Assembly: GCA_027625915.1 (NCBI GenBank)
Contig: JANTQA010000012.1
Span: forward strand, 6,222,501 to 6,286,500
Direction: 5' to 3'
Length of the DNA stretch: 64,000 nucleotides
Source of the DNA: Anaeramoeba flamelloides
Lineage: Eukaryota > Metamonada > Anaeramoebidae
How positions within the stretch are numbered: position 1 is the stretch's first letter; every line of letters begins with the position of its first letter. The position numbers were made by a program, and so were the translations under genes. The notes beneath the pieces are model-generated. The model saw only the letters and a program-made list of their open reading frames with translations, searched no databases and had not been told where the DNA came from. Positions 7,335 to 63,878 of this stretch are shown one piece after another.

Positions 7335-7815
7335 TTATTTGCCGTTAGATTTTTTATAATTTTTGAAATAAACAGAAAATTTAAATAATTTTCGGTTTAT
7401 TTCAAAAAGTAAAAAAAACATCCGTTAGCTTTTCCAGAGTTTAAAAGAATTGAGTAAAATCTTTGATTTTTCGATATTCTTTAGAATTCTGGAAAATCAC
7501 TGTTAGGTTTACTTGAGTTTTCTGTTTATTTGTGAAGTGTTCTAGGTTTTTTTTACTTTGGAAATAAACAGAAAATTTATTAAAATTTTAGATTTATTTC
7601 TAAAGTAAAAAAAACCTAACGAAAATCGGTAGATTTAACAAATGAAATTGAAAACCTCAAGAAAACTTAGGCACTCTAGGCACTCTACGGCACTTCACCG
7701 AATTCCTAAATTATGATTTAGGAATTTTGTTAAAGACTCAAAAATAAATTTATTATCCACCAAGGCTAATAAATATGATGAACCTTTTTTTCTTATAATA
7801 CCAAAAATAGCAATA
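7335..7815. repeat. Modular hairpin array related to LINE 3' ends
   Basis: Series of hairpins joined by GTTAG boundaries: one with GAAATAAACAGAAAATTT and its mirror, one around TTTTCCAGAATTTAAAAG and its mirror. The array is followed by a conserved tail beginning GAATTCCTAAAT (itself a short hairpin) that recurs at about 21034-21125. The same modules abut two LINE relics near 21.7 and 24.95 kb, so this is probably a solo LINE 3' end. Confidence 0.7.
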
Positions 7816-8215
7816 CAGTCAATCCAAAGCTACGGTGAAATTTTATTAATATCAAATTTTGATGTTGATATAAATTTTTAAAAAGTTCAATATGAGAATA
7901 ATAAAGCACATATTGAAAAAAAATAATCCTAAATGAGTCAATATTCAAGAATTTTTTCTGATTTTCAAAAAATAAATTTTCAGAACTCAAAATGAATCTA
8001 AACATCAAAAATTCATTAAGAAACTACATAAAATTTCCTCTAAAACAATGAATTTATTTTTCGATCACTTTAGAAGAATATTTTTCAAATGAGCTCATTT
8101 ATGAAAAAATATTTTCAATATAAGCTTTCTTATTCTTATATTCTTAGATTTAAAAATCTATATCAACATCAAAATTTGATATTGATAAAATTCCACGGTA
8201 GCCTTGGAACGGTTG
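7816..8215. mobile_element. 400-bp TA-flanked inverted-repeat element, nested insertion
   Basis: TA flanks both ends (7814-7815 and 8216-8217). Terminal inverted repeats of about 90 bp start CAGTCAATCCAAAGC on the left and the diverged CAACCGTTCCAAGGC on the right. The related repeat at about 21034-21230 lacks this block, so the empty site shows it inserted into an older repeat. Its size and TA target fit a Tc1/mariner-type MITE. Confidence 0.82.
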
Positions 8216-8532
8216 TAATATTATTTTTTAATATACTAGAAACAGTAAAATTTTTTAATTCAGTTATCCGGATTTTACGATTATTTTCATCGGCTGGGCA
8301 GTTCCCGAGAATATAAAAAAAATGCTATTTTTTTATTTTTTTTAATTTGAATTTTTGGTTTTTATCTTTTCACACAATTTTTTAAATTATTTTTCTTTTT
8401 GGAAAAAAAAATTTTTCAGCCATTCCAACACAAACTCGAAAATTTATAAGATGTAGATATTGATTTTCTGTTATATACACTTTTATCTTGTAAGAATATT
8501 TTTAAACAAAATTATTTTATTGTATCAACTAA
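8216..8532. other. Right part of the interrupted repeat
   Basis: Bases 8216-8305 continue the repeat seen at 21130-21230, with GGCTGGGCA shared in both. The remainder is A/T-rich spacer. Confidence 0.55.
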
Positions 8533-9748
8533 TTAAGGGAGTAAGTACATTTTTTATTTTTTGAGTGCTACCATTTATTTGAAACTGAATTATTCAAATC
8601 ATTTATTTAGCCAAATAGATTGATATTTTAATAAATACAAGATTGGAATATATCCTAGTATAAAATATTTTCATACCAACGAAAAAAAGGAAATCAAAAA
8701 AATGAAAAAATTGATCAAAAAAAAAAAAACAAAAATCATTTATTTCTTGATCTTATCTAAAAAATTTTGCAGAATTACTAATTCTTTATTTGGTTTTATT
8801 TTTAATTCTTGATGAAAATAATTTTGTTTGGAAGATGTTTGATAAACAAATTACTGTTTATTTCTAAAGAATTTCCAAAATGAATTTAAAAATCCTATCT
8901 TCATTTAATTCATCTAATTCTAGTTTGAGTTCAGAAAATGAGATATTTTTTTAATTCTTCTTGAGAATGAGGGTTTATTTGACAAATTGTATTGTTTTAG
9001 AATTATTTATTTTTCATTAAATTGAGAACACAAAATAATTCTGAATCTGATCGAAATTTTTTCTTGAATTTTTCAATTATTTGGATTTGAATCTTTTGTA
9101 ACTGTTTTTTGATTCCAAGAATTCAACCCCTTTATTTTAATTTTTGAAACAGTATTCTTTGTTTTGGCTTGGTTTGATAAAAATATTTGAAACAATAATT
9201 TTGAAAGCAAATTTGCCAAAAAATGTTTTTTCAAATAATCATAAATAGTAATGGGGATAGAAATTCAAGGTTATAAATTGTTTGGGTTCATATAAATTAA
9301 GTAGATAATGAAAAAAAATATTCGAAAACAGACTTTGGTTTTTTTTTTATATTCTTGATTTAAACAAATTTATTTGGAAAGGTGATCTTTTGTGTTTGAT
9401 CTTCTAAAAGATAACATTTGTTTCAAATGAACACATCTTTTGGTGTATATTTTTTTGGTTTTACTCTTTGATCAATTTTATTCGTTTGAATAAACAAATT
9501 TCTAGATCCAAAACCAAATTTAATAAAACAAAAAATTGAATCAAAAAAAAATGTTCAAAAAAATCGAAAAATGAAAGATTCAACTCTGAACTACTTTTGG
9601 TTCACTTAGTTCGCTTTCAATTCACAAATAGAGCGAAAGGAGTTTTGGTTTCACCATTACAATATCTGGTGACACTCAAAAAATATTTTTCAGTAATGTT
9701 CGCACAATTAAAATTTTTCAAAATGGTAAAATGTACTTACTTGCTTAA
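8533..9748. mobile_element. TTAA-flanked element, GGGAGTAAGTAC family, 1.2 kb
   Basis: TTAA at 8533-8536 is followed by GGGAGTAAGTACATTTT. The mirror of this sequence ends in TTAA at 9745-9748, giving a 1,216-bp element. A 188-bp relative lies at 18653. No intact or recognisable transposase frame is visible inside. TTAA targets are used by piggyBac and Kolobok-like transposons; which of these applies is unresolved. Confidence 0.65.
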
Positions 9749-10266: not shown

Positions 10267-18068
<7,802 letters not shown>

Positions 18069-18652
18069 CTATTATGTTTATGGTTATTATAGTTATTATT
18101 GATTAATTAACATTGAATGTGCATGTGTAATTATAGAAAATTGAATAAACTAGGATTTTATTTTGGAAAATCCATTATTTTTGAAAAATAATTTAATATA
18201 AGGATGAAATTATAATATATATATATATATATTAATTGTAAATAATAATTTTTTTGATCTTAAAGTTTCGCAGAGTAAGAAATCATTTTTATGATATATG
18301 CTTAAAAAATAAGGTAAAGAATCAGCGATTTGACACAACAAATAGTTTTGTTTTTAATAATACCAATTTTCCAAATAAATACTAAAAAATATCTGTGAAT
18401 TTTAAAAAAACGATATATTATTATAATTTTTTGATCATTTCCCAAAAGTAAGTATAAAAACAAATATGTTATTTGGTAACGAATAAGATAAATTTGATTT
18501 TTTTTTTTTAAAATAGAAAAAATCCCTATTTTTATGAAACTTTTGAGACCTCGATTCACAATTTTATTACTTTTAAATTCAAAATTGTGTTTGAAAAGAA
18601 ATTAATTTCTTCAGCCTTATAATTTTTTTGCCAATAAAAATTTGTAAATACC
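18069..18652. other. Region upstream of kinase exon A, including a TA tract
   Basis: Should contain, or lead to, the missing kinase 5' exon, but no glycine-loop coding exon with a good donor was found. A TA microsatellite lies at about 18216-18231. The open frame at 18302-18559 has no recognisable motif. Confidence 0.4.
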
Positions 18653-40034: not shown

Positions 40035-40830
40035 TTTTAGATTATCCGTTAGGTTTTTTTTAATTTTTGTTATAAACTAAATTTTAAGAAATTTTCGGTT
40101 TATTTCAAAAAGTAAAAAAAAAAACCACCGTTGGCTTTTCCGGAATTTAAAAGAATTGAGTAAAATCTTTGATTTTCTCCATTATTTTGAATTCTGGACA
40201 ACTATCGTTAGCTTTTATTGGGTATTCTGTTTATTTGTGAAGTGTTCTAGGTTTTTTTGAAGTTTTCTATTTTATTTAGAAAATCAATAGATTTTAGTTA
40301 AGTTTTTATGAGTTGTCTCTTTATAACGAAAATCAATAGACTTTCATTAGGTTTTTTTTACTTTCCGATAATCCGAAAATTTTAATAAATTTTCTGTTTA
40401 TTTCCAAAGTAAAAAAAACCTAGAACACTTCACAAATAAACAGAAAACTCAAAAAAAAAAAACAAACACTTAACTAATAAAACAGAAAACCTCAAGAAAA
40501 GCTAGGCACTTGAACGTACTTTACAACTCTCGGTAGGCATTTCCGTTAGGCTTTTTTTTTTTTTTGAAATATACTGAAAATTTTCATACAGTCAGTTTCA
40601 CTTTTTAGGCACAAACTTTCAACGAAATTTAAGGCACAAAAAAATCTCAAATTAAGGCACAACATTTGGAATTTTTTTTTTTACAATTTTTTTTACTAGA
40701 ATTTGAATTTTGTGCTTTAATTTGAGATTTTTTTTGTGCCTTAAATTGTGATGAAAGTTTGTGCCTAAAAAGTGAAACTGACTGTAAATTTTCAGTATAT
40801 TTCATAAAGTAAAAAAAAAAAAAAACCTAT
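40035..40830. repeat. Modular hairpin array with MITE inserted
   Basis: Contains the same GTTAG-bounded modules as the LINE tails, including AATAAACAGAAAA and mirror, TTTTCCGGAATTTAAAAG, and GTGTTCTAGG. The last hairpin (CTGAAAATTTT and mirror) is split at its loop by the MITE at 40589-40784, which gives a precise empty-site reconstruction. Confidence 0.7.
40589..40784. mobile_element. 197-bp MITE, copy 5
   Basis: TA-flanked, with tips CAGTCAGTTTCAC. Inserted at the loop of a pre-existing hairpin (host arms on both sides pair with each other). Confidence 0.93.
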
Positions 40831-41039
40831 ACACAACACTACACTACACTACAAGGAAAGAAAAAAAAAAAAAAAAAAATTTTTTTTCAGAGCTAGTTTT
40901 TAACTTTTTCAAACACACATATTATGTGCTATAAAAATTTCTATTTTAAAATTATCTGCACCCAAAAAATAAAAAAAAAAAAATGAAAAATGAAAAAAGA
41001 TTACTATAAAAAAATTTTTTTTTACTAAAATTTTTAATA

Positions 41040-41235
41040 CAGTCGGTTTCACTTTTAAGGCACAAACTTACAACGAAATTTAAGGCACAAAAAAATCTCA
41101 AATTAAGGCACAAAATTTGGAATTTTTTTTTGACAATTTATTTTTACTAGAATTTGAATTTTGTGCTTTAATTTGAGATTTTAATTGTGCCTTAAATTTC
41201 GTTGAAAGTTTGTGCCTTAAAAGTGAAACTGACTG
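41040..41235. mobile_element. 197-bp MITE, copy 6
   Basis: TA-flanked, with the left tip CAGTCGGTTTCAC (one change) and the right tip canonical. Lies 255 bp from copy 5. Confidence 0.93.
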
Positions 41236-42187
41236 TAGTAATTTTTTTTTTTTTACTGAGATGTTTTTTTTTTTTTTGATTTAAAATCAATTTTTATGAA
41301 TTTTTTTTAAAAGTTTAGGTTAAATATACTGAGTTTAAGTGAAAATTAATTTGTTTAAAGAAAAATTAAAAACAATCAAATTAATGAATTTTTTGAATTT
41401 TTGAATTTTTGAACTTTTTTTGAAAAATTCAAAAATTTTATTAATATTATTTTTTTCAATGATGGCACTTGAATATCCGTTCCCGGTTTTTAATCAATAT
41501 TTACAACCAGGAAAATTCATTTTTCATCATAAAAAGCATTTTTTTAAAAAAATTGATTTCAACTTTTTAATTTTTTTTTTAGTCGAAAAATCATGATTTT
41601 TCTACTAAAAAAAAACGATTCAAACTTCTACACCTTTTACAGATAAAATTTCTAGAATTAGAGACCTGAGCCGAAGAAAAAGGAGTTTTATTAGAGTTAA
41701 ATTTTCATTTTTTCAATTTTATTTTGAAAATCGCAAGAATGCCTGGAGAGTTAAAAAAAAAAAAAACAGAAAAAAAAAAAAAATTAAAATTAATTAAAAA
41801 AATCAGTTAATATGTATTGAACTACGACTTCAAAACAAAAATATTGAATAAAAAAATTTCTAAAAAGATATTTAAATATATATTTTTTAATATAAATTTA
41901 AATCTAAACAATAAAAAAAAAATAAAAAAAAAAAAAAATTTTTTTTTGGATTTTTTATTTATTTATTTAATTAATTTATTGTTATATATTAGTAAATTAA
42001 AACAAGGCCCAGAAAAAAACATAAAAAATTTTTGATAAGAATTAATTGTATTAATAGAATCATTTTAAATCTACTCCAAATATAAATCATGTTATAATTC
42101 ACCTTTATTCTTTATTCACATTATCATCCGAATAGAAATATCTTGAATAACATCGTGTGCTACGATGGGTTTGTGTGGAGTTCATGT
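41236..42187. other. A+T-rich spacer
   Basis: Poly-A and poly-T runs. The frame at 41817-42035 is Lys/Asn/Ile low complexity and I do not call it a gene. Confidence 0.45.
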
Positions 42188-42624
42188 GCTGTGATTCCTT
42201 GGTTGTTGATGATCCAGGGTTGGGTTAGTCCCAACTCTGGAAGGCAGTAGCAGCATCAACAAAATAAACTGCCTAATTAGGCCAAATGCGGAAGTTTTTT
42301 AACATTAGGGACTAGTAAGTCCCTAATGTTTACCTGACCTTTTAGATCAGGATTTATTTTTTAAATTTTTTTTTTGTAATTTGCCTGTTTAAGCTTAAAC
42401 AGGGAAATATTGTGTTGTGTGTGTGTGTGAAGTGTAGCTGTGATTCCTTGGTCGTTGATGATCCAGAGTTGGGTTAGTCCCAACTCTGGAAGGCAGTAGC
42501 AACATCAACAAAATAAACTGCCTAATTAGGCCAAATGGTGAAGTTTTTTAACATTAGGGACTAGTAAGTCCCTAATATTTACCTGACCTTTTAGATCAGG
42601 ATTTATTTTTTAAATTTTTTTTTT
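42188..42624 (+). ncRNA. Candidate structured RNA, two tandem copies
   Basis: Two direct copies of about 188 bp (42188-42375 and 42437-42624, period 249). They are far less A+T-rich than the flanks. Each copy can fold into an outer stem GTTGATG/CATCAAC enclosing an 11-bp stem (42214-42240) with loop TTAGT, a self-complementary GCCTAATTAGGC, a 13-bp stem (AACATTAGGGACT with mirror, 42301-42330), and a CCTGA/TCAGG stem. Each copy then ends in a run of 10 or more T. In the 11-bp stem copy 1 has G:U where copy 2 has A:U, so pairing is kept. The 60-bp linker holds a perfect 20-bp palindrome (42384-42403) and a GT repeat. I matched it to no known RNA class. A structured repeat element is the main alternative. 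Strand is inferred from the T-runs. Confidence 0.5.
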
Positions 42625-43142
42625 AAAGGTTTAAAAAATCAAAAAAGGAAAAGGAATAATGATGAAAAAAAAGAAAAAAAAAAAGAAAAAGAAACAAAAG
42701 AATAAATAAAAAGGAAATTTTTACTTCAATTCGAGTTAAAAAAAATAAAAATAAATGCGCTGAAAATTAGTGTATTTTCCCTCCGCTTAGTAGACCCTTT
42801 TTTTTCTTTATATTGAAAATCATTGGTTGAGAATCTTCAAGCCAGAATCCAATATAGTCAATTACGAGCCTCTTTTCTATCTTTGTTCTATTTTTAATTA
42901 GAAAAATAAAAAAAGTTAAAAAAAAAGAAAAAGAAATAAGAAAATGAATAAACTTTAAAAAAAAAAAACATAAAGAAAAAAAAGGAGAAAATAAAAAAAA
43001 AAAAAAAAATAGGATAATTACCAAAAGATTATTTTATGAGTTGTAATAAAGTTAAATTGATTAAATTGACATTAATTTAATCATTTTTTTAACTTTATTC
43101 GTTTTTATTTCTCTTTATAAATTTTAAATCTTGAAAAGCCTT
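42625..43142. other. A-rich spacer upstream of small frame
   Basis: A-rich low-complexity DNA. The minus-strand frame at 42767-43024 is Phe/Lys low complexity and is not called. Confidence 0.4.
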
Positions 43143-43310
43143 ATGTCTACTCAGATTAGAGAATCGAGCAGCGTCACCAATTGTACCACTTTGGAAAATG
43201 ATATGCTTAGTGTCAATGCCATTGAGACCATAGAAGAAGAAGAAAAGAAGATGAACTGGGGAGATTTGATTATAGAAGAACTGGGGGGGAGACACCCTGA
43301 AATATCATAA
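43143..43310 (+). CDS. Possible small acidic protein, 55 aa
   Basis: ATG to TAA frame of 55 codons: starts MSTQIRESSSV, passes through an acidic TIEEEEKK segment and ends MNWGDLIIEELGG plus six residues. Base composition is clearly less A/T-rich than the flanks and codon choice is balanced, unlike chance frames here. The opposite-strand frame (43295-43095) is its shadow. No known domain. It might be a first exon, but no GT donor in it is good. No promoter motif could be assigned. Confidence 0.45.
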   Translation: MSTQIRESSSVTNCTTLENDMLSVNAIETIEEEEKKMNWGDLIIEELGGRHPEIS

Positions 43311-44382
43311 AGAAAACCCAAAAATTAAAACGTAATAATTTGTTCAATTTTTTTTCCAATTTTATTTTATTTTTTTTCAAATTTTTTAGCAATTTATTTT
43401 TTCAATTTCTATTTCAATTTTTATTTTGGATTTTTTTTCAGTTTTTTATTATTTTTTTTTTTAAATTTTTTTTATTTTATTATTTAAGGGACTATTCTAT
43501 CTTAATTGTTTAAGTAAATTTAATAGAGATTTAGAACTTTTTTTGCCAATTACTTAGATTTGAAATCAAAGTGAAAAACTTCTTAGTATAGTAATGAAAT
43601 CTCGATAAATGACATTCATTAAATTTAGTTATTGTTTTTCTAGAAATAAAAAAAAAAATTTTTTCCATTTTTTCACTTTTTTGAAAATTGATTTTTTTCA
43701 ACTTTTCTCAAAAATACAAAAAAAATGAGCAAGAAAGCAAAACCAAGTTGTGTCTGTGGTAGATCGACAAAAAAATAGTTTGAAAAATAGGCTGGAAAGG
43801 TTTTTTTTTGGATTTCCATGAAAAAACAGTTCGACTCGAAAAAAATATACAATTTATTCTTTACTTAAAATAAAAGATTTCCTTTTTTTTTCTTGTGCCA
43901 TTCTTTTTATTAATGAAATTACTTTTTAGTTTACATTCTTTTGTTTTTGTTGAATTTGAAGTTTTTTTAAGTGGTCCCAAATTACCATCCCAAAAGTTTT
44001 TGTCAGAGTCAAAAGAATAAAAGAAGAGAATTAGAACTATTTTTTTAAAAAAAGTAATTATCGAAAAAACAAATTGAGTTCTTTATAGAGACAAGTTGGA
44101 TGAACAGAAGAAAAAGAGAAAATATTCACTAGTTTTAAATTATTTTTTAATTTATAAAAAATGAGAATAAATATTATTTTTGAGAAAATAATTAAATCCA
44201 AAATTAATCAAAAAAAAACTCTTCTTCTGTTAGATATTTTTTTAAAATAAATATTTATAAAAGTCACTTTTTTTAGAATTGTAAAATTTAAAAAAAAAAA
44301 CAAGAACCACAAGTTCCAATATTTAAAAAACCCTGTCTATTTTCAATTCTAAACATATTTCAAGATTAGGATTACGTATTTA
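43311..44382. other. A+T-rich spacer
   Basis: A lone TTAAGGGACTATTC, resembling TTAA-type element tips, occurs at about 43484 without a visible partner. No gene is seen. Confidence 0.4.
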
Positions 44383-44578
44383 CAGTCAGTTTCACTTTTA
44401 AGGCACAAACTTTCAACGAAATTTAAGGCACAAAAAAAATCTCAAATTAAGGCACAAAATTCATATTCTAGGAAAATAATTTGTAAAAATTAAAAATCCA
44501 AATTTTGTTCTTTAATTTGAGATTTTTTTGTGCCTTAAATTTTGTTGAAAGTTTGTGCCTTAAACGTGAAATTGACTG
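44383..44578. mobile_element. 197-bp MITE, copy 7
   Basis: TA-flanked; canonical left tip, right tip ATTGACTG. The arms are intact and the internal loop differs from the other copies, having lost the usual central poly-T. Confidence 0.92.
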
Positions 44579-44654
44579 TATATCATATAGAAAGCAATTA
44601 TTTATTTTTTTCTCCGGGTTTGGTATCATATTTAAGGAGATTTCTTTTTTGAAA

Positions 44655-46524: not shown

Positions 46525-47530
46525 AAAGTTTATAAAAAATTTCGGTATATTTCAAAAAGTAAGGTAACCACGGTTAGCTTTTCCATAATTTAAAAGGAAT
46601 TACAGTCAGTTTCACTTTTAAGGCACAAACTTTCAACAAAATTTAAGGCACAAAAAAATCTCAAATTAAGGCACAAAATTTGGAATTTTTTTTTTTTTAC
46701 AATTTATTTTTACTAGAATTTGAATTTTGTGCTTTAATTTGAGATTTTTATTGTGTCTTAAATTTCGTTGAAAGTTTGTGTCTTAAAAGTGAAACTGACT
46801 GTAAGCAAAATCAAAGATTGTAATCCATTCTTTTGAATTTTGGAAAAAACATCCTTAGCATTACTTGAGTTTTCTGTTTATTTGTGAAATTTTCTTGTTT
46901 TTTTTTTTTTGAGGTTTTATATTTTATTTAGAAAATCAATAGATTTCCTTTAGGTTTTATTGAGTTTTAGAAATAAACAGAAAATTTTAATAAATTTTTT
47001 CTTTATTTCTAAAGTAAAAAAACCTAGAATACTTCACAAATAAATAGACAGCTCAAAAAAACCTAGAAATTTTCACAAATAAAATAGAAAAAAACTCAAA
47101 AAAAGCATGAACACTTTACAAATAAATAGAAAACTCAAAAAAACTTAGAACACTTAACAAATAAAATAGTAAACCTCATTGATAATGCTGTTAGATTTTC
47201 GAGAATAAAAAAGAATTGAGTAAAATTTTTGATTTTTCTCTATTCATTTAAATTCTGGAAAATCACTGTTAGGTTTTTTTTTTTTTTAATTTAAGAAATA
47301 AAAAAACATAGGCATTCTAAATACTCTAAAGCTCTTGAAAGCACTTTTCAATGTGTTTTTTTTTTAATTTTTGAAAAAAAAAACAAAAAAATATTTAATT
47401 TTCGGTTTATTTTTAAAAAATAAAAAAATCACTGTTAGCTATTCCAGAATTTAAAAGAATTGAGAAAATCCTTAGATTTTACTCCTATCTTTTGAATTTT
47501 GGAAAAGCTGGACACTTAACAGCACTTGAT
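46525..47530. repeat. Modular hairpin array with MITE inserted
   Basis: Long run of the GTTAG-bounded hairpin modules (GAAATAAACAGAAAATTT and mirror; TTTTCCATAATTTAAAAG and mirror; GAAAATCAATAGATTT). The second module is split by the MITE at 46603-46801. No adjoining RT sequence is recognised, so this is a solo array. Confidence 0.7.
46603..46801. mobile_element. 197-bp MITE, copy 8
   Basis: TA-flanked, with canonical tips and full arms. Inserted in the loop half of a hairpin module. Confidence 0.93.
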
Positions 47531-48760: not shown

Positions 48761-51700
48761 TTATTTTTTCTTATTTTTTTTGCTTTTTTTATTTTTTTCA
48801 GTTTTTTCATCTTGTGAATTGGAAGATTTTTCATTTGAACTTGATTTATTTTTTTTTGTTTTCTTTTTCTTTGAATTTTTCTTTTTTTTTTTGAGTCTTT
48901 GTTTTTCTTCCCAGATTGGTATTCCAGGCTTACCAAAAGGAGGGTCAATTTCCTCATTTTCTTGGTATTTTACTTTATTGATGTATTTGTATATCCAATT
49001 ACCGTTTTCATCTTCATCAAAGTATTTTGTTTCCCATACAGTTTCATCTTCCTTTCTGACTTTACGATCTTCTCTTTGTTTTGTTTCAAGTGCAAATTTA
49101 TATTTTGAAGCGTAATCAACGTCATCATTTTTGAGTCCCTTTGTTACTTCCTTCCATAATCTTCGACTTTCGAATTCATCTTGTTCTTCAATTGGTGGGA
49201 CATACATTTTGTTATATTTTAATTTTTTTAAATCGAAAAGAACTTGCTTATCATTTTTTTTCTTTTTTTTGAAATAATGGATTTTATCGTCCCAATAACC
49301 TGAGAAATTATAAATGAGCTTATTGTCCTTGTATATTTCACCTTTGATTTCATTCAAATTTCCTTTGAAAAATCCTTTAGCTAAAAATTCTACTTTGACT
49401 TTGATACCTGTCTCTTTACAGTAAATGACTGGTTTTCCTGCTACTTCGGCATACATTGAACCTTTTAGTTTGTGTTGGATTATTTGTTTGTTTATTTTAC
49501 AATTCAAAAAAGGTAAGTAAGAAAGAAAGATTGAAAGTAGGAAAAAAAGATTGGAAGATTGAAATTAATATCAGATTTTTAAGTTATTATTTAATCAATT
49601 TATTCTTTTAAAATTCTATTGATCAATGAAAAATTGGTATTTTTTTTTTTTTTACAGGTTCGGATTTTGTTTTAAAAACTATAGAAGAAAACTTACCAAT
49701 AACGACTCCTCTTGCATAATAATCAGGCAACTGAATAAAATAATGTTCATCAAAGGGCAATAGATGAAAATCCATTTTAGAAGAATCAGTTAATAAACTT
49801 GCTGCAGAGTTCCCTAAAAATTTACTTTTAGGATAAATGTGGCCAGTGATATAGTACTGTAATTTTCGATTTTCGGCATAGTATGCAGAGATAGGTCTAA
49901 TTTTAAATAGTAGAAATTTTTTATATAGAAAAATTCAAAAAAATTCAAAAGATTAGAGGAATGCAAAATTAAAAATTAGAAATTGTGAATTTTTGGGTTA
50001 AGGGTTGAACAAAGAAAGTATTGTATCTCTGACAGATAATTAAAGTATTAATCACATGTTCTGATTAACTGGATTAAACCCTTTACGGGGTAAGCCAATG
50101 TAAATATTAATTTCTCTACTTTTTAAAAGTTCCAATTTTCAGAATTTTGAAAAAAAAAAAAAAAATAATAAAATATAAAATCTCAACAGAGGTGGGGTTT
50201 TTTTTCCATTTAAGATTTAATTTTAAATAATATAAAATTATTGATGTTTTCTTGAGGTTTGAAATTAGTTGGAATGAATTCAAGATTATTGGTGTATTTA
50301 AACAATTTACATTTTAAATCATTTGAAATTAATATTTTTTGGCTATCTAATCAGTTATAATCTTGACTACATTATATCTAGGATAAAAAACTCTAAATTA
50401 ATTTAGAGTTTCAAAATGCAAAAAAAAACCTAACGGCGCTTTTCTTGAGGTTTTCTGTTTTATATGTTAAGTGTTCGAGGTTTTTTTGAGGTTTTCTTTT
50501 TATTTGGAAAATCTATTGATTTTCGTTAGGTTTTTTTGAGTTTTCTATTTATTTGTGAAGTGTTCTAGGTTTTTTTTACTTTAGAAATAAACAGAAAATT
50601 TTAATAAATTTTCTGTTTATTTCTAAAGTAAAAAAAAACCTAACGAAAATCAATAGATTTTCGAAATAAAATAGAAAACCTCAAAAAAACCTAGAACACT
50701 TCACAAATAAATAGAAAACTCTAGAAAAGCTAACGGTGCTTTTCCAAAATTCAAAAGAATAGAGAAAAATCCTTTGATTTTGCTCAATTCTTTTAAATTC
50801 TGGAAAACCTAACGGCAGGCAAATGGTAATTTTGTTGAATCATCTCTCTTCGATAATAATAAATAAAAAATAAAAAAGATTTTTTGTTTCACCAAAAGAA
50901 TTTAATCCAAAAAAAAAAAAAATAAAATAAAATAAAAATAAAAAAATTCACTTATTAATAATTAAAATATAAAAGATGTCTTCAAAAAAGGTTGGTTAAA
51001 TTTATTTTAAAATATCTTAATTAAACTCGATTCTAATATAACTATTAAAATATCCGAAATTGTTGTTCATCATTTAATTGATTCTGAATAGTAATTCAAT
51101 TTTTTTGTTATTATTGCGGTATTATTTGTGAATAAAAGAAATTTATCAAAGTTTCTGATCTCAATTTTAGATGACATTTTTCAAGTGAGAAAAATGGTGA
51201 GTATTTTTTTTTTTTTTTTTTTGATCGTAAAAATTGATTTCTAAAGAGGTTTGATCTTGACAAAATTCACAATTGAATAAAAAAATTATAAGTTTCTTTT
51301 ATTTTGTAAAAATTTGTTATGTATCTAAAATATTATCATATTTACCATTTTTTATTATACCTTGTTTTGTAATAAAAAAAGTATGGATTTTTATTTTTTC
51401 ATTATGTTTGAAATGTTTTGATGAACATATTTTGAAATACATCCAAATAGGCACTGATATAATCAGTATTAATATTTTACTTGTTTTGGTATTTTCAATT
51501 TACAAATAGATCAACTAACAAAGAGGTTTTTATGTAATGTAAAAAAAAAAAAAAAATGCCCCACTTTTATGAAAATACCTTATATGAAAATATATAATTA
51601 TGTTGTTTAAAAAGACTATACTAGAAATTAGTAAGATTCTATAGCATTATTCTTGCAAGATATTTTGTGCAGACTATAAATAAATTTTACTTTTTTTTTG

Positions 51701-58447: not shown

Positions 58448-58751
58448 TATAGTAATATTATGAAAAATAGAAATTTAAAGTATCTTTCAACCTGAGAACA
58501 TGATTTAGATTGCATTATAATGCCAGGGTATAGTAATTTTAGTTGTCTCTAAAAAAAGCTTCAACCTTATTTTGATCATTTTCAAAAAAAAAATGGGAAA
58601 GGAGAAAAAAATTCACTTTCTCAAAATGGATTTATATTTCAAATTAATACTTTTACAATGAGATCAACTCTTTTTGAAAAATACCTTATCCATCGACATT
58701 TCATTTTTTTTATTAATTGAAATAAAGAATATTTTCTTGGAATTAACTTCA

Positions 58752-61700
58752 ATGTCAGAAGAAATTAAAATGGAAAAAGAAGAAGGAGAACTTGAGTATC
58801 ATGATATTTTACTCGACTTGATCAAGGGCCAATCAAAGAAAAAAAAAGATGCACTTATGAAAATTCTGTATGGAGGGGAATGCCTCCCAATTAAAGTCAC
58901 AGAAGAAGCATCGAACCTCTCAAACAAACACGATTTTGAAATCAAAGCATTCAACCTCCCAGTTACGTATAAAGAAGAGCTTCGAAAACCAAGACGTGTT
59001 CGGATCGGTGCCATCCAAAATTCCATTGCAGTTAGCACAAGCGAATCGGTTGAAAAGCAAAGGAATGCACTTTGGGCCAAGATCGAGAAAATGTTGATCG
59101 CTGCGGGAGAAATGGGAACCAACGTTATCTGTTTACAAGAGGCATGGAATATGCCATTTGCATTTTGTACAAGAGAAAAAAAAAAATGGATGGAATTTGC
59201 TGAGCCAATTGATGGACCAACCACCCAGTTTTTAGCAAAGATCGCCAAGAAATACCAAATGGTTATTGTCAACCCCATCCTTGAAAGGGACATTAAACGC
59301 CAGGGACAAATTTGGAACACCGTTGTTGTGATTGATGCCAACGGAGAAGTATTGGGTTTCCATAGAAAGACACACATACCAAGAGTTGGGGATTTTAATG
59401 AGTCTACTTACTACATGGAAGTAAGAAATATTCTAGCACTCTTTTTCGATTGTTTTTTCTTATAATGCCTGTTCATTCATATTTTTTTTGTCAACCTTTT
59501 TTTCCTTTACTTTCCCTTCCGTTCCCTTTTTGGTAAGCTTATTGAGAGAGCTAATTTTATTTTCAAAATTTTTACACACAAGAATTACTCGTCTGGAATG
59601 GGAACAAAGATTGTCTTGTGTACCATGTAAAGCCTTTTTTTTTTTTTTTTTTTTTTTGATTCTTAGTTGATCGATCTGCAAAGTTGGGTGAATTTTAAAA
59701 GTTGTTCAAAAAATGAATTTTTTTTTCAAAATTGTCTTCCGAAATTATAACTTAAGTTTCTAACTAATAGGTTGGAAGATACTTTTAAATGCAAAATAAA
59801 ACGATCAAAATTTTCGTTCAGCTTTCCAAAAAACACATATTACCCAAGAATTCAAATAAATCATAGCCAATTCGAAAAGGGTAAAATCAATAACAAAAGT
59901 TAATTTTAAGAATTCAAAATTTTAAATGTTACATGATTTTTAAATCTTTTTTTGGAAATCCCAATGAAAATTGTGTTTTATTTATTTTCCAACAAACATT
60001 AAGTTATAAAAAGAATATTTTTTGTCCTGAATAAACAAGGTTTTAAAGTTGGAATGTTAAGATTTTTATTTTGTTTTATTTTACTTTTTGTAAAATTTCC
60101 AAAAGTTAATTTCTGAAATCAAGTAATTGGAGAAATTAACCATTATAATCATCTTCTTTTTTACTGGGGATTTAAAAATAAGAATAAACCAGTTAACACT
60201 TCAAAAATAAAAAATTTTTTTTCTCATTTCAAAAAGAATGTTAATGTGAAGTTAGACAACGAAAATATTTTTATTGGTGAAAAATATAACTTTTTTTTTA
60301 ATATTCAGAAAGGGGACATGAATAATTATCTATATTACTATTTGTTCCAAAATAAAGGAAACAAAATTTTTATTCGGTTTTCCATAAACAGATATTAAAA
60401 AACATATAATTTCAAAATTTATGATTCTTGAAACAAGCTTAAATTATTAATTTTCTCTTTTAGAATTGGGGAATTTGATGATTTATTTTCATTCTTGGAA
60501 TGTGATTTTTTTGGAAAGCTGAATCTAAATTTTGATCATTTTATTTTGCAATTAACAGTATAAAGCAAAATTTCCCTTTTGAAAATTCCACTTTAAAAAA
60601 TAATTTTTAAATTTAACAGGCATATAATTCATAAACAAATTAAAATTCAAACAGGACATTAAAAAAAAACAAAAAATTACAAATATTCATCAAAAAAAAG
60701 GTTTCATATGACTTTCATAATAATACAAAAACCCAATACACTGAAAAATGAAATAGAAAAAATATCAAGTAATGACAACCCAGTATTCAAACCTTCAAGG
60801 GGAAGAAGAAATTGTAATAATAACAACAAATAGGAATAATTTATTGGTCTTAAAAAAAAGAAAAAATGAACCAGATTCGCCCTTATAAAAAGGAATAGAA
60901 ATTTTAATAGAAACAAAAAAATTCACCAAACTTTCAGATTTGTCAAAAAATATGAAAATGATTCAAATTTCAAACTAAAGAGAAAATTTGATTCAAATAG
61001 AAATAATAATAAGTTCAGAATAATTGCAATTATAATTTTCATGCTAGGAACCTAATTTAGATAGTTTTCAATCATTTTTTGAATTTTTTTCTAAAGTTAA
61101 ATTGAAATAAAAAACAATTCTTTATTCTAATTAAAAATTTAATAAATTCTTTTTTTATTTTGGATTATTCAAAAATTTTTTTTAAAAATCATTATAGTTG
61201 TTTCTTTGTGGATTGATGAAAGTATCTATTGAAAATTCTATTATTTTGGTTAAAATCATTTAGAAACGAAAATAAATTAGTTTTTTATTTTGAAAAGATG
61301 AGAAAAATGAAAAAAAAAACGAAAATTTTGACTGATTTCTTCTTTTTTTAATATAATATTTTTTTTACATTTCGATACGCATGGTGACTTTGAAATCCAT
61401 CAATAGATTGGTAATTATCAGATAAAAAAAAACACCGCCCCCTTCAAAGTAAGTTATCCAGAGGGTTCTAGTCATTAAGGTGAAAAAATTTATTGAAATT
61501 GAAAAAATTTTTTTGGTAATTTTTCTCAAAATCTAATATAAATTTAAAACCAACCAAAATGTGATGTACAACAGATCTCTAAAAATAATGAACGAAAAAA
61601 GAGGAAATTTTAAGAACAAAGAGTCAAAGAGTGACACTCAATTTCCAATTCAAATTGCACTAAAAATTGTTTTTGAAAATAACTGTCTCAGTTTCTAAAT

Positions 61701-63878
61701 TTAGATCTTTGCGCTTTTAGGGATCCCCATTTGATTTTTTTTTATTTTTTTCATTTTCCAAATAGGTTATTTTTTACAGAAAGAATGTTACAAAATCATT
61801 AAATGTTAAATATTGAGGAAGTTATAAAACAAAAATTAGGTTAAATTAAATTGATTTCGTACTTTGAGAAAACAATTTGTTTCAAATCAAATGCATTTGT
61901 GCATTTAGAATTCTTAATAAGATAGGATTAAAAAATTTTTTCTAAATTTGGATTTTTGTTATTTGGGAATTCTTTGTTAATTTTTTGTGATTTGGATTTT
62001 TTGTTAATTTTCTGAATTTTTTTTCTGATAATTGCCCACGATTTACAATGAGATACTTTTAATTTTTTTTTTTAATGATTTGAATTTTACAGTCAAAATT
62101 AGATCACTTTTACAATATCATTATAAGAGTTTAATCGATTTCTTGAGCATGAATTAAATCCAAAAGAAGTGAATGGACATTTAAAGTACATCTAAACTTC
62201 CATCTAAAATTTTTGACTTAATAAAATTCAATTTTTAAAAAAAAAAAAATCTTATTTAATCAATTCTAGAACAAATACCAAATATAAATCAATATTAATT
62301 GTTAATATTAACAATTATTTCTAATTTACAATACAAATAATAAGAAAAAGAAATAAAAATCAAGAGTGTATCCAAAATTTTGGAGAAAACACAACAAAAA
62401 AAATATATTGATGAATGTGTTAAAATTTCATAAACAATTAGGATTCGATCAAAAGATTAGATGTCATCAAATAATTTTATTTGGTTTTTTTTTCTATTTT
62501 AAAGGAAACACAATTTTATATTAATAACAATCATTCTAAAAAAAAGTTTTATGGAACAAAAATTATTATGAGATAGAAAAAAAAGAAATGAAAACAAAAA
62601 AAAAATAATGATAATGATAAAAATATTTTGAAAAATCATAATTATTTCCAAATTTGATTAAAATTATATGGTTTTTATACTTTTTAACTGTTTTAAACTT
62701 GTAAAAACTTTAAATTTTAGGGTTTATTTCCTATATTTTGAAGACATTTTAAAACAAAAATAAAATCAAAAATTTAACATAAGAATTTTACCCTTTTAGA
62801 ATTTGAATACTAGTAATTGAATGAAAGTTGTATCATTTTTTTCTAATAAATTCAAAAAAATTCTAAAAATTTTTTAGTTCAATTTCAATTTTTATAAATC
62901 TTAGAACTAAACTTGTAAAAAATGTTTCATTTCAAATAATATTAAGAAGAGCAACTAATTTTACAAAGTTTCTTTATATTTGAATCAATAGAATTCTTTA
63001 TTCAAATCGTGTATAAAAAATTTTATAAATATGTAAAGGAGATAAAAGTTTTTGAACCTTTACCTTGAATTTATCAGTATTAGTAAAAAGATTCTAAAAG
63101 GGGTATCTTTTGTACCCTGGAAAAAAATAACTCTAAAAAAGTGTAAAATTTAAATAAAAATCTTTTTTTTTTTTTTTTGTTGAATACATGCTTGTCTTCA
63201 TAAAACAGAAATAGAAACCATTTATTTTTTTTTCTCTTCACCCCTTTTGAAATTATATTTATTAAAAATTTCTCTTTTTATATCATTTTAATCTATTTTA
63301 ATACTTAACAAAAAAAAAAGGGAAACACACCACATACCGTTTTTGAAACAAAATATGCAAAAATTGGAATTAATATTTGTTATGGAAGACATTTCCCTGA
63401 AAACTGGGCAGGTTATGGCCTTAAAGGGGCAGAAATTGTCTTTAACCCATCTGCTACTGTTGGCTTGCTATCTGAACCACTCTGGGGTGTAGAGGCGCGT
63501 AATGCTGCCATTGCCAATGGATATTTCACAGTTGCAATTAACCGGGTTGGAACAGAAACGTTCCCAAATGAATTCACCTCTGGAAACGGGCTCCCATCTC
63601 ATAAAGATTTTGGCCACTTTTATGGATCATCATTCCTCACTGCACCAAATGGTTTAAGAACACCATCACTATCAAGAATTAGAGATTCTCTTCTTGTAGC
63701 AGAAGTTGATTTAAATCAAATCAGACAAGTTCGAGATAAATGGTGCTTCCCAATGACTAGGAGACTCCCAGTTTATGCTAAACTTTTCAATGAGGCCTCT
63801 CAACTTGATTGGGAACCAGAAACAGTTTCAAAGTCGAACCCACAAAAAAAGAAAAAAATTATTCCAAAAAAAAAATAA
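58752..63878 (+). CDS. UPB1: Beta-ureidopropionase (N-carbamoyl-beta-alanine amidohydrolase)
   Basis: Exon 1 is 58752-59420 and exon 2 is 63321-63878, split by a 3,900-nt phase-0 intron (GTAAGA to AAAAG), giving 408 aa. The family is about 384 aa in animals. The nitrilase-fold triad is complete: Glu130 in CLQEAW, Lys206 in [11 protein letters not shown] and Cys243 in NICYGRH. Joining restores ESTYYMEGNTPH across the splice, as in homologues. It performs the last step of reductive pyrimidine degradation, hydrolysing N-carbamoyl-beta-alanine to beta-alanine, CO2 and ammonia, normally in cytosol. ATG 58752 is preferred to 58674 because the upstream 26 codons are hydrophobic A/T-type and absent from the family. 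The tail is a Lys-rich low-complexity addition. No other pyrimidine-pathway gene is nearby. Confidence 0.96.
59782..59999. mobile_element. 220-bp TA-flanked MITE, copy 2 (inverted, in UPB1 intron)
   Basis: TA at 59780-59781 and 60000-60001; 218 bp, opposite in orientation to the copies at 9846 and 60338. Contains CAAAATTTTCGTTCAGC near the left tip and TTACATGATTTTTAAAT near the right. Confidence 0.8.
60338..60558. mobile_element. 220-bp TA-flanked MITE, copy 3 (in UPB1 intron)
   Basis: TA at 60336-60337 and 60559-60560; same orientation as 9846-10067, sharing GAATTGGGG and TTTTTTTGGAAAGCTGAAT in the right half. Confidence 0.83.
60559..62194. other. UPB1 intron, middle part
   Basis: A/T-rich intron DNA. 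The minus-strand frame at 60704-60916 is hydrophobic low complexity and not called. A run of five C lies near 61438. Confidence 0.5.
62195..62724. mobile_element. Mariner-like MITE relative, 530 bp (in UPB1 intron)
   Basis: TA-flanked ends AACTTCCATCTAAAATTTT and mirror of AACCCTAAAATTTAAAG. The internal segment with GTGTATCCAAAATTTTGGAG and GATCAAAAGATTAGATG aligns with 55.93-56.04 kb. Strongly diverged, so old. Confidence 0.65.

Follow-up and report, generated by a model that had tools for sequence, protein, structure and literature searches.

A pair of strongly folded tandem units was found in the window, which here means the whole 64-kb stretch of DNA that was analysed. With a probability of about 0.85, this pair is not an RNA gene standing by itself and belongs to a large CACTA-type cut-and-paste transposon, in its left end region. 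In the window, one copy of the element is represented by its left 3.5 kb, and the right part is absent. Units with the same conserved fold recur in many places of the genome, and I lean somewhat towards reading them as a tandem stem-loop repeat of the non-coding left subterminal region that acts as a cis control region, a role to which some 0.5-0.6 of the 0.85 given to membership may be assigned. Literature searches on this unit or on similar transposon RNA found no description among the papers listed.

Structured units in the window

As shown in Table 1, the window contains two copies of the unit with a period of 249 bp. The GC content over 42150-42660 is 0.36 against 0.24 (23.8%) for the whole window, and the first-pass annotation had thus described a GC-richer tandem pair accurately. 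Its claim of strong structure also holds; each copy folds better than all of 200 dinucleotide shuffles (z = -5.1 for copy 1 and -5.9 for copy 2). When the whole window was scanned for perfect hairpins (perfect arm of at least 11 bp, loop of 3-8, at least 4 G/C in the arm), only one more was found outside the units, an A/T-rich one at 50570-50637. The array is absent from the Tandem Repeats Finder list for the window.

Each unit consists, in this order, of an outer stem enclosing a 12-bp hairpin, the GCCTAATTAGGC hairpin, a 13-bp hairpin built around ATTAGGGACT, the CCTGA/TCAGG hairpin and a T-rich tail. The possible pseudoknot was not among the predictions of the folding tool. It had been noted that a G:U pair of copy 1 is A:U in copy 2. 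This difference is real, the G of copy 1 being the exception among 19 close sequences, but the added statement that the only stem change keeps pairing is incorrect, since C42552 opposite A42577 breaks a pair in the 13-bp stem of copy 2. The T-runs said to end the copies do exist. They say little, because T-runs are common in the window and the genome: 59 runs of T10 or longer occur in the window, and a T9+ run lies within 40 nt at 5.0% of 20,000 random positions.

Table 1. Positions of the structured units, their hairpins and the surrounding transposon fragment in the window
Feature	Position	Strand	Basis or remark
Left-end fragment of the CACTA/EnSpm-like transposon	40837-44382	+	~92% homology to other copies
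Left terminal repeat CACTACACTACACTACAAGGAAA	40837-40859	+	Matching end in other copies
Palindromic insertion of ~200 bp splitting the left end	~41040-41235		Gap in homology
Structured unit, copy 1	42191-42377	+	Repeat comparison and folding
Outer stem of copy 1, GTTGATG/CATCAAC	42205-42211 with 42254-42260	+	Folding
Hairpin inside the outer stem of copy 1, TCCAGGGTTGGG/CCCAACTCTGGA	42213-42224 with 42230-42241	+	Folding
Arms of a possible pseudoknot, AGGCAGT/ACTGCCT	42242-42248, 42268-42274	+	Read from the sequence; group A only
GCCTAATTAGGC hairpin, where the core common to groups B and C begins	42271-42282	+	Alignment
13-bp hairpin AACATTAGGGACT-AGTA-AGTCCCTAATGTT	42301-42330	+	Inner stem nearly invariant in all groups
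Hairpin CCTGA...TCAGG	42333-42351	+	Arms AAAGAGAT/ATCTCTTT instead in group C
T-rich tail of copy 1	42353-42375	+	Such tails are common in the genome
Spacer hairpin TTTGCCTGTTTAA/TTAAACAGGGAAA	42380-42407	+	Between units, absent after the last one
Structured unit, copy 2	42439-42626	+	Repeat comparison and folding
Copy 2 form of the 13-bp hairpin	42550-42579	+	Mismatch C42552/A42577

Distribution of the units and their subfamilies

A search of the genome (254 Mb, 76 contigs) with the unit gave at least 76 matches; this and the other genome-wide search counts are lower bounds. With a two-copy profile, the fetched places yielded 82 rows of at least 28 bits, corresponding to 74 distinct units in 34 places (units up to 6 kb apart were joined, and three weaker profile rows were dropped). 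By score, 19 units resemble those of the window (group A), 20 belong to group B and 35 to group C. Group B units have ~75% identity, are preceded by a long TG tract and include a subgroup of three (L026, L027 and L037). Group C units consist only of a 3′ core of ~100 nt and the spacer hairpin. Judged by eye in the alignments, the outer 5′ stem GTTGATG/CATCAAC of group A is GGTTGGT/ACCAACC in group B and TTGGATTCCAG/CTGGAATCCAA in L026, while the fourth hairpin, CCTGA/TCAGG, is replaced by other complementary arms in group C (Table 1).

When the genome was searched for the 25-base core stem, with a loop of 2-6, at least 61 exact matches were obtained, compared with 0 for the reversed control. 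For the core, a covariance model was run over 43 sequences including the window (315,071 bases). The strong matches, every one of those above 35 bits, were confined to the known arrays in the expected orientation, and those below 35 bits were mostly known hairpins read on the opposite strand. Contigs longer than 4 Mb contain 24 unit places, and five of these fall within 50 kb of a contig end (C24:45.8-48.7 kb, C30:9.4 kb, C34:9.3 kb, C48:34.5 kb and C51:11.7 kb), which exceeds an even spread; these units could possibly be subtelomeric.

Several identities of the unit were considered and rejected. The likeness to C/D-box snoRNAs seen by the first-pass annotation comes from TGATGA and CTGA strings in group A. 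It did not survive the comparison of groups: TGATGA is part of a paired stem and does not occur in groups B and C, and CTGA is altered in L026, L027 and L037 and missing in group C. The Rfam search of the window gave 0 matches at the gathering score; the best one below it, AfaR (E = 0.32), lies on the other strand and is meaningless. The stem of the unit holds TTAGGG and CCCTAA, and a link to telomeres was rejected, as four TTAGGG repeats have 0 matches in the genome. A viral or prokaryotic origin was rejected as well, the exact 25-base core pattern in its group B/C form having 0 matches in viral_contigs and genome_contigs, and so was a ciliate code, since long frames, e.g. of 382 aa, are open under the standard code.

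The transposon that carries the units

The distance from the left end of the element to the units is ~1.2-1.7 kb. Homology to other copies covers 40826/40836-41039 and 41236-44382 at ~92% identity, and the homology over 40836-44382 is present in all six group-A copies aligning to that end (L038-L043, 10-kb flanks). The other copies run on past 44382, where the window copy stops at another palindromic repeat; small dispersed repeats apart, the right part of the element was not matched in the window beyond this point. An element of ~11.4 kb is found in contig C9 (3608-15050 of the joined stretch). The ~200-bp palindromic repeats (CAGTCAGTTTCACTTTTAAG...) form a family of their own, which occurs in both orientations as many insertions in the window (40568-40790, 41039-41236, 44380-44580, 46598-46803 and 2399-2843) and in most fetched loci.

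In the copies read, the element has CACTACACTACACTACAAGGAAA or a close form at its left end and TTTCCTTGTAGTG at its right end. These are terminal inverted repeats of the CACTA type, carried by the window left end as well as by the copies read. The terminal pattern CACTACAAGGAAAA occurs at no fewer than 1,002 exact places in the genome (504 + 498) against 1 for the reversed pattern. Short target-site duplications, within the range of 2-3 bp, were found in four of the five copies read at both ends, as 2-bp direct repeats (AT in C40, AG in C57, AG in C24B and GT in C33B). They were judged by eye; C9 is unclear, and C13, with tandem right ends, and C56, whose right end was not found, were excluded.

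The ORFs of the element are on the same strand as the units and to their right, starting ~3.5 kb from the left end and ~2 kb beyond the units. One of them matches the Ulp1 protease family (E = 8e-8), and a second one scored E = 0.02, under the cut-off of that family. A 183-aa piece of a transposase-like protein has at least 32 matches in the genome, 11 of which fall in six copies of the A element (C13, C9, C40, C56, C57 and C30). This protein has ~15 relatives elsewhere in the genome at 29-33% identity and a CxxC in common with one distant relative. Since no Pfam transposase model, including the Tnp2-type Transposase_21, matched in the 10, 4 and 1 proteins scanned, CACTA membership rests on the ends, the duplications and the protease. 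The Ulp1 protease alone does not decide the class, because in grapevine, according to PMC2528002, Ulp1-bearing families occur among CACTA and also among Mutator-like elements.

The first-pass annotation had offered a structured non-autonomous element as one explanation. In part this was right, as the unit is carried by a dispersed transposon whose copy in the window has no coding part. However, the unit is not the mobile element itself, because homology extends far beyond it and the terminal repeats lie at the ends of the element. The unit resembles a MITE in being dispersed, non-coding and repeated, and it was rejected as a stand-alone one: its borders have neither terminal repeats nor target duplications, homology continues on both sides, and terminal inverted repeats are found only at the ends of the 11.4-kb element or of the B-type deletion derivative.

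With the two-copy profile, the structured repeats were found neither in the rest of the C9 element nor in ~700-bp end derivatives. These derivatives of the right end form tandems at several right ends; in C13 they also adjoin the element on its left side. They are arranged head-to-tail, terminal repeat against terminal repeat (CCTTGTAGTGTACAAGG), at L039 3170-3866, from 15858 onward in the joined C13 stretch and at the right ends of L045-L048. Outside the C9 element, past its left end, L040 ~7544-9052 is repetitive, GC-richer and open in several frames on both strands. The window also contains host-like genes for a protein kinase (17483-18106, minus strand), an oxysterol-binding protein (48764-49564, minus strand) and a carbon-nitrogen hydrolase in two parts 3.8 kb apart (58662-59462 and 63309-63875, plus strand). 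A long TGC/TGT triplet run at 10391-10497, which reads as poly-Q on the minus strand, lies beside a kinase fragment.

A common core in two repeat families

Over the first ~2.9 kb, the B elements (C24B and C33B) align to the A element, and the identity in bins of 150 bp is 0.56-0.90. The B elements seem to be deletion derivatives in which the left non-coding part with the unit was retained; at the B locus L048 there is no frame of at least 100 aa. The bins with the unit have 0.73-0.82 identity, no better than the neighbouring bins. When the C9 element is compared with C24B and C33B, the left 3 kb is ~73-74% identical against 93-94% for the right 1.3 kb, a contrast which suggests that ends were exchanged between element families.

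Seven group-C arrays belong to a second repeat family (L030 with 9 units, L029 with 6, L032 with 5, L034 with 4, L031 with 3, L036 with 2 and L033 with 1). Their flanks align mutually at 88-99%, and against A or B nothing aligns beyond the core and small palindromic repeats. The flanks of L028, L035 and L009 gave no alignment to those of the second family at the length shown. In contig C1 the end of the family, ...CAATTTATACTTGTG, lies ~2.8 kb to the right of the array. A first look at the genome gave at least 253 candidates for this end, 40 of which were scored, and matches lie right of the arrays in C9, C18, C42, C24 and C64. The second family is read as a putative second DNA transposon with the end CACAAGTATAAATTG, known from this one end. 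Judging from these alignments, the 100-nt core is probably a module common to two mobile families with different ends. At L059 ~1842-2051, a LINE-like endonuclease frame (..IDIALIQETKL.., by eye) starts where the second-family element of C1 ends, as if this element had inserted into a LINE.

Folding and covariation

Is the unit an RNA gene? The first-pass annotation had suggested a pair of small Pol III-type RNA genes, which is conceivable. It is likewise conceivable, though rather doubtful, that the units are genes of an undescribed structured RNA family, housed in at least two DNA-transposon families and acting in trans for the transposons. Such a transposon-borne non-coding RNA, which I regard as unlikely, would run on the plus strand after the TG-rich leader, fold into 3-4 hairpins and end at the T-run, and it might serve, for example, as a silencing decoy or a transposase partner. 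Its fold would be under selection, to which the hairpin order, the invariant ATTAGGGACT stem and the swapped outer stems may point, and it would have been multiplied as arrays. In favour of this reading, some subfamilies have different complementary arms in place of those of the CCTGA hairpin and of the outer 5′ stem. The confinement of the covariance-model matches above 35 bits to the arrays, in the expected orientation, and the core common to two families favour it as well.

Covariation was tested with 26 core sequences and 500 shuffles. Pairing is kept in 94.1% of the cells against 90.0% in the shuffles, with covariation scores of 0.117 and 0.055, respectively. Two pairs changed on both sides account for 13 cells against 4.0, a value which none of the 500 shuffles reached, and this also speaks for an RNA. 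On the other hand, the number of two-sided pairs (2) and the number of pair types (10) are not above the shuffles (reached by 437/500 and 412/500), and slid structures give up to 3 two-sided pairs. A comparison of near copies gave 58 distinct stem changes, of which 16 lead to G·U and 13 to A·C; another 25 are transversions and 4 are double changes. In the group A spacer hairpin the count is meaningless where the last copy lacks this hairpin and the rows are misaligned; an A·C change in L013, counted among the 13, lies in it. For C2, no spacer hairpin was found. Pairing of a plus-strand RNA is expected to favour G·U, which is only slightly above A·C. The test by which the first-pass annotation proposed to refute its reading thus gave a mixed result: covariation is seen between subfamilies, where the partners in a few stem positions differ and still pair, but near copies change without clear compensation.

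All of the eight subfamily representatives examined fold strongly, which again fits an RNA, with z from -3.1 to -8.1 on the plus strand. However, folding of the minus strand is as strong or stronger (z from -5.4 to -8.5). In a background of 60 windows the median z is -0.08, with one window at -11.4. As both strands fold equally well and changes to G·U are about as numerous as those to A·C, the fold does not demonstrate an RNA function. Also counting against an RNA gene, copy 2 and later copies lack the sequence upstream of copy 1; only TG-rich DNA is found there, and therefore there is no fixed upstream promoter. The common T-runs likewise weaken the proposed 3′ end. In summary, a genuine fold of ancient origin is common to the subfamilies, and no RNA strand is singled out.

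Discussion

In PMC2613891, the subterminal repeats of plant CACTA elements are described as forming 2 left and 12 right stem-loops. TNPA, encoded by the element, binds these repeats, which are cis-determinants of excision, and this binding is reported to end transcripts there. The element analysed here resembles the plant ones (maize En/Spm and soybean Tgm/Tgmt*) in its large size and in its asymmetric stem-loop-forming repeats near one end (PMC2613891). Its CACTACAAG.. terminal repeats are like the CACTACAAGAAAA quoted for the En/Spm family in PMC7210773, and an Ulp1-type region is also found in grapevine CACTA families (PMC2528002). It differs from plant CACTA elements in its 2-bp duplications, which are 3-bp there, and in a transposase domain unmatched by Pfam. 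Animal CACTA elements, namely SmTRC1 of Schistosoma and relatives, likewise have target duplications of 2 bp (in 7 of 14 copies there) as well as a transposase CxxC, according to PMC1636069, a text in which "subterminal" and "stem" have 0 occurrences and subterminal stem-loop repeats are not mentioned.

In line with the role proposed for the plant repeats, the units may act as palindromes to which an element-encoded protein binds, or serve as a structured leader and terminator. In either form they would set the transcription of the element genes to their right on the same strand. Equal folding of both strands is expected of DNA palindromes. The bare movement of short derivatives would not need the units, because the ~700-bp derivatives lack them and the ends are so numerous. 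Some observations count against a cis role. Known subterminal repeats are short (motifs of 12-20 bp in plant CACTA elements) and near both ends, whereas the units are ~190 bp long, distant from the end and found on the left only. The core also occurs in the second family with different ends, which would not be predicted for a family-specific binding site. Between A and B the unit is no more conserved than its flanks, and no Pfam transposase domain was matched.

The equal conservation of unit and flanks would also fit units of no present function, namely a GC-richer satellite-like hitch-hiker that expands inside transposons and whose palindromes are kept by template-switch repair. The array size, which varies from 1 to 9, and the drift of the near-copy stems without clear compensation are consistent with this. 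But the 100-nt core and the hairpin order are kept between families that otherwise no longer align, and I consider a mere hitch-hiker improbable.

An array of terminators or insulators, whose hairpin and T-run units would halt host transcripts before the element genes, is about equally improbable: hairpins followed by T-runs do lie left of the genes on the gene strand, but a terminator scan of 40836-44382 gave 1 site against 0.8 expected, which is not a unit hairpin, and T-runs are common here. Termination at a hairpin and T-run is a bacterial device, and no eukaryotic polymerase is known to depend on it.

A cis control region in the left end of the element, as a larger and one-sided counterpart of the plant repeats, is thus the reading that I retain. 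Stem-loop repeats of the subterminal regions, known mostly from plants, are regarded as control sites of CACTA elements. With ~190-bp multi-hairpin units in two families of a protist-like genome, it could be asked whether repeats of this kind serve as DNA binding sites, as RNA leaders or as RNA genes. The common core would also allow the question whether the repeats pass between transposon families as modules.
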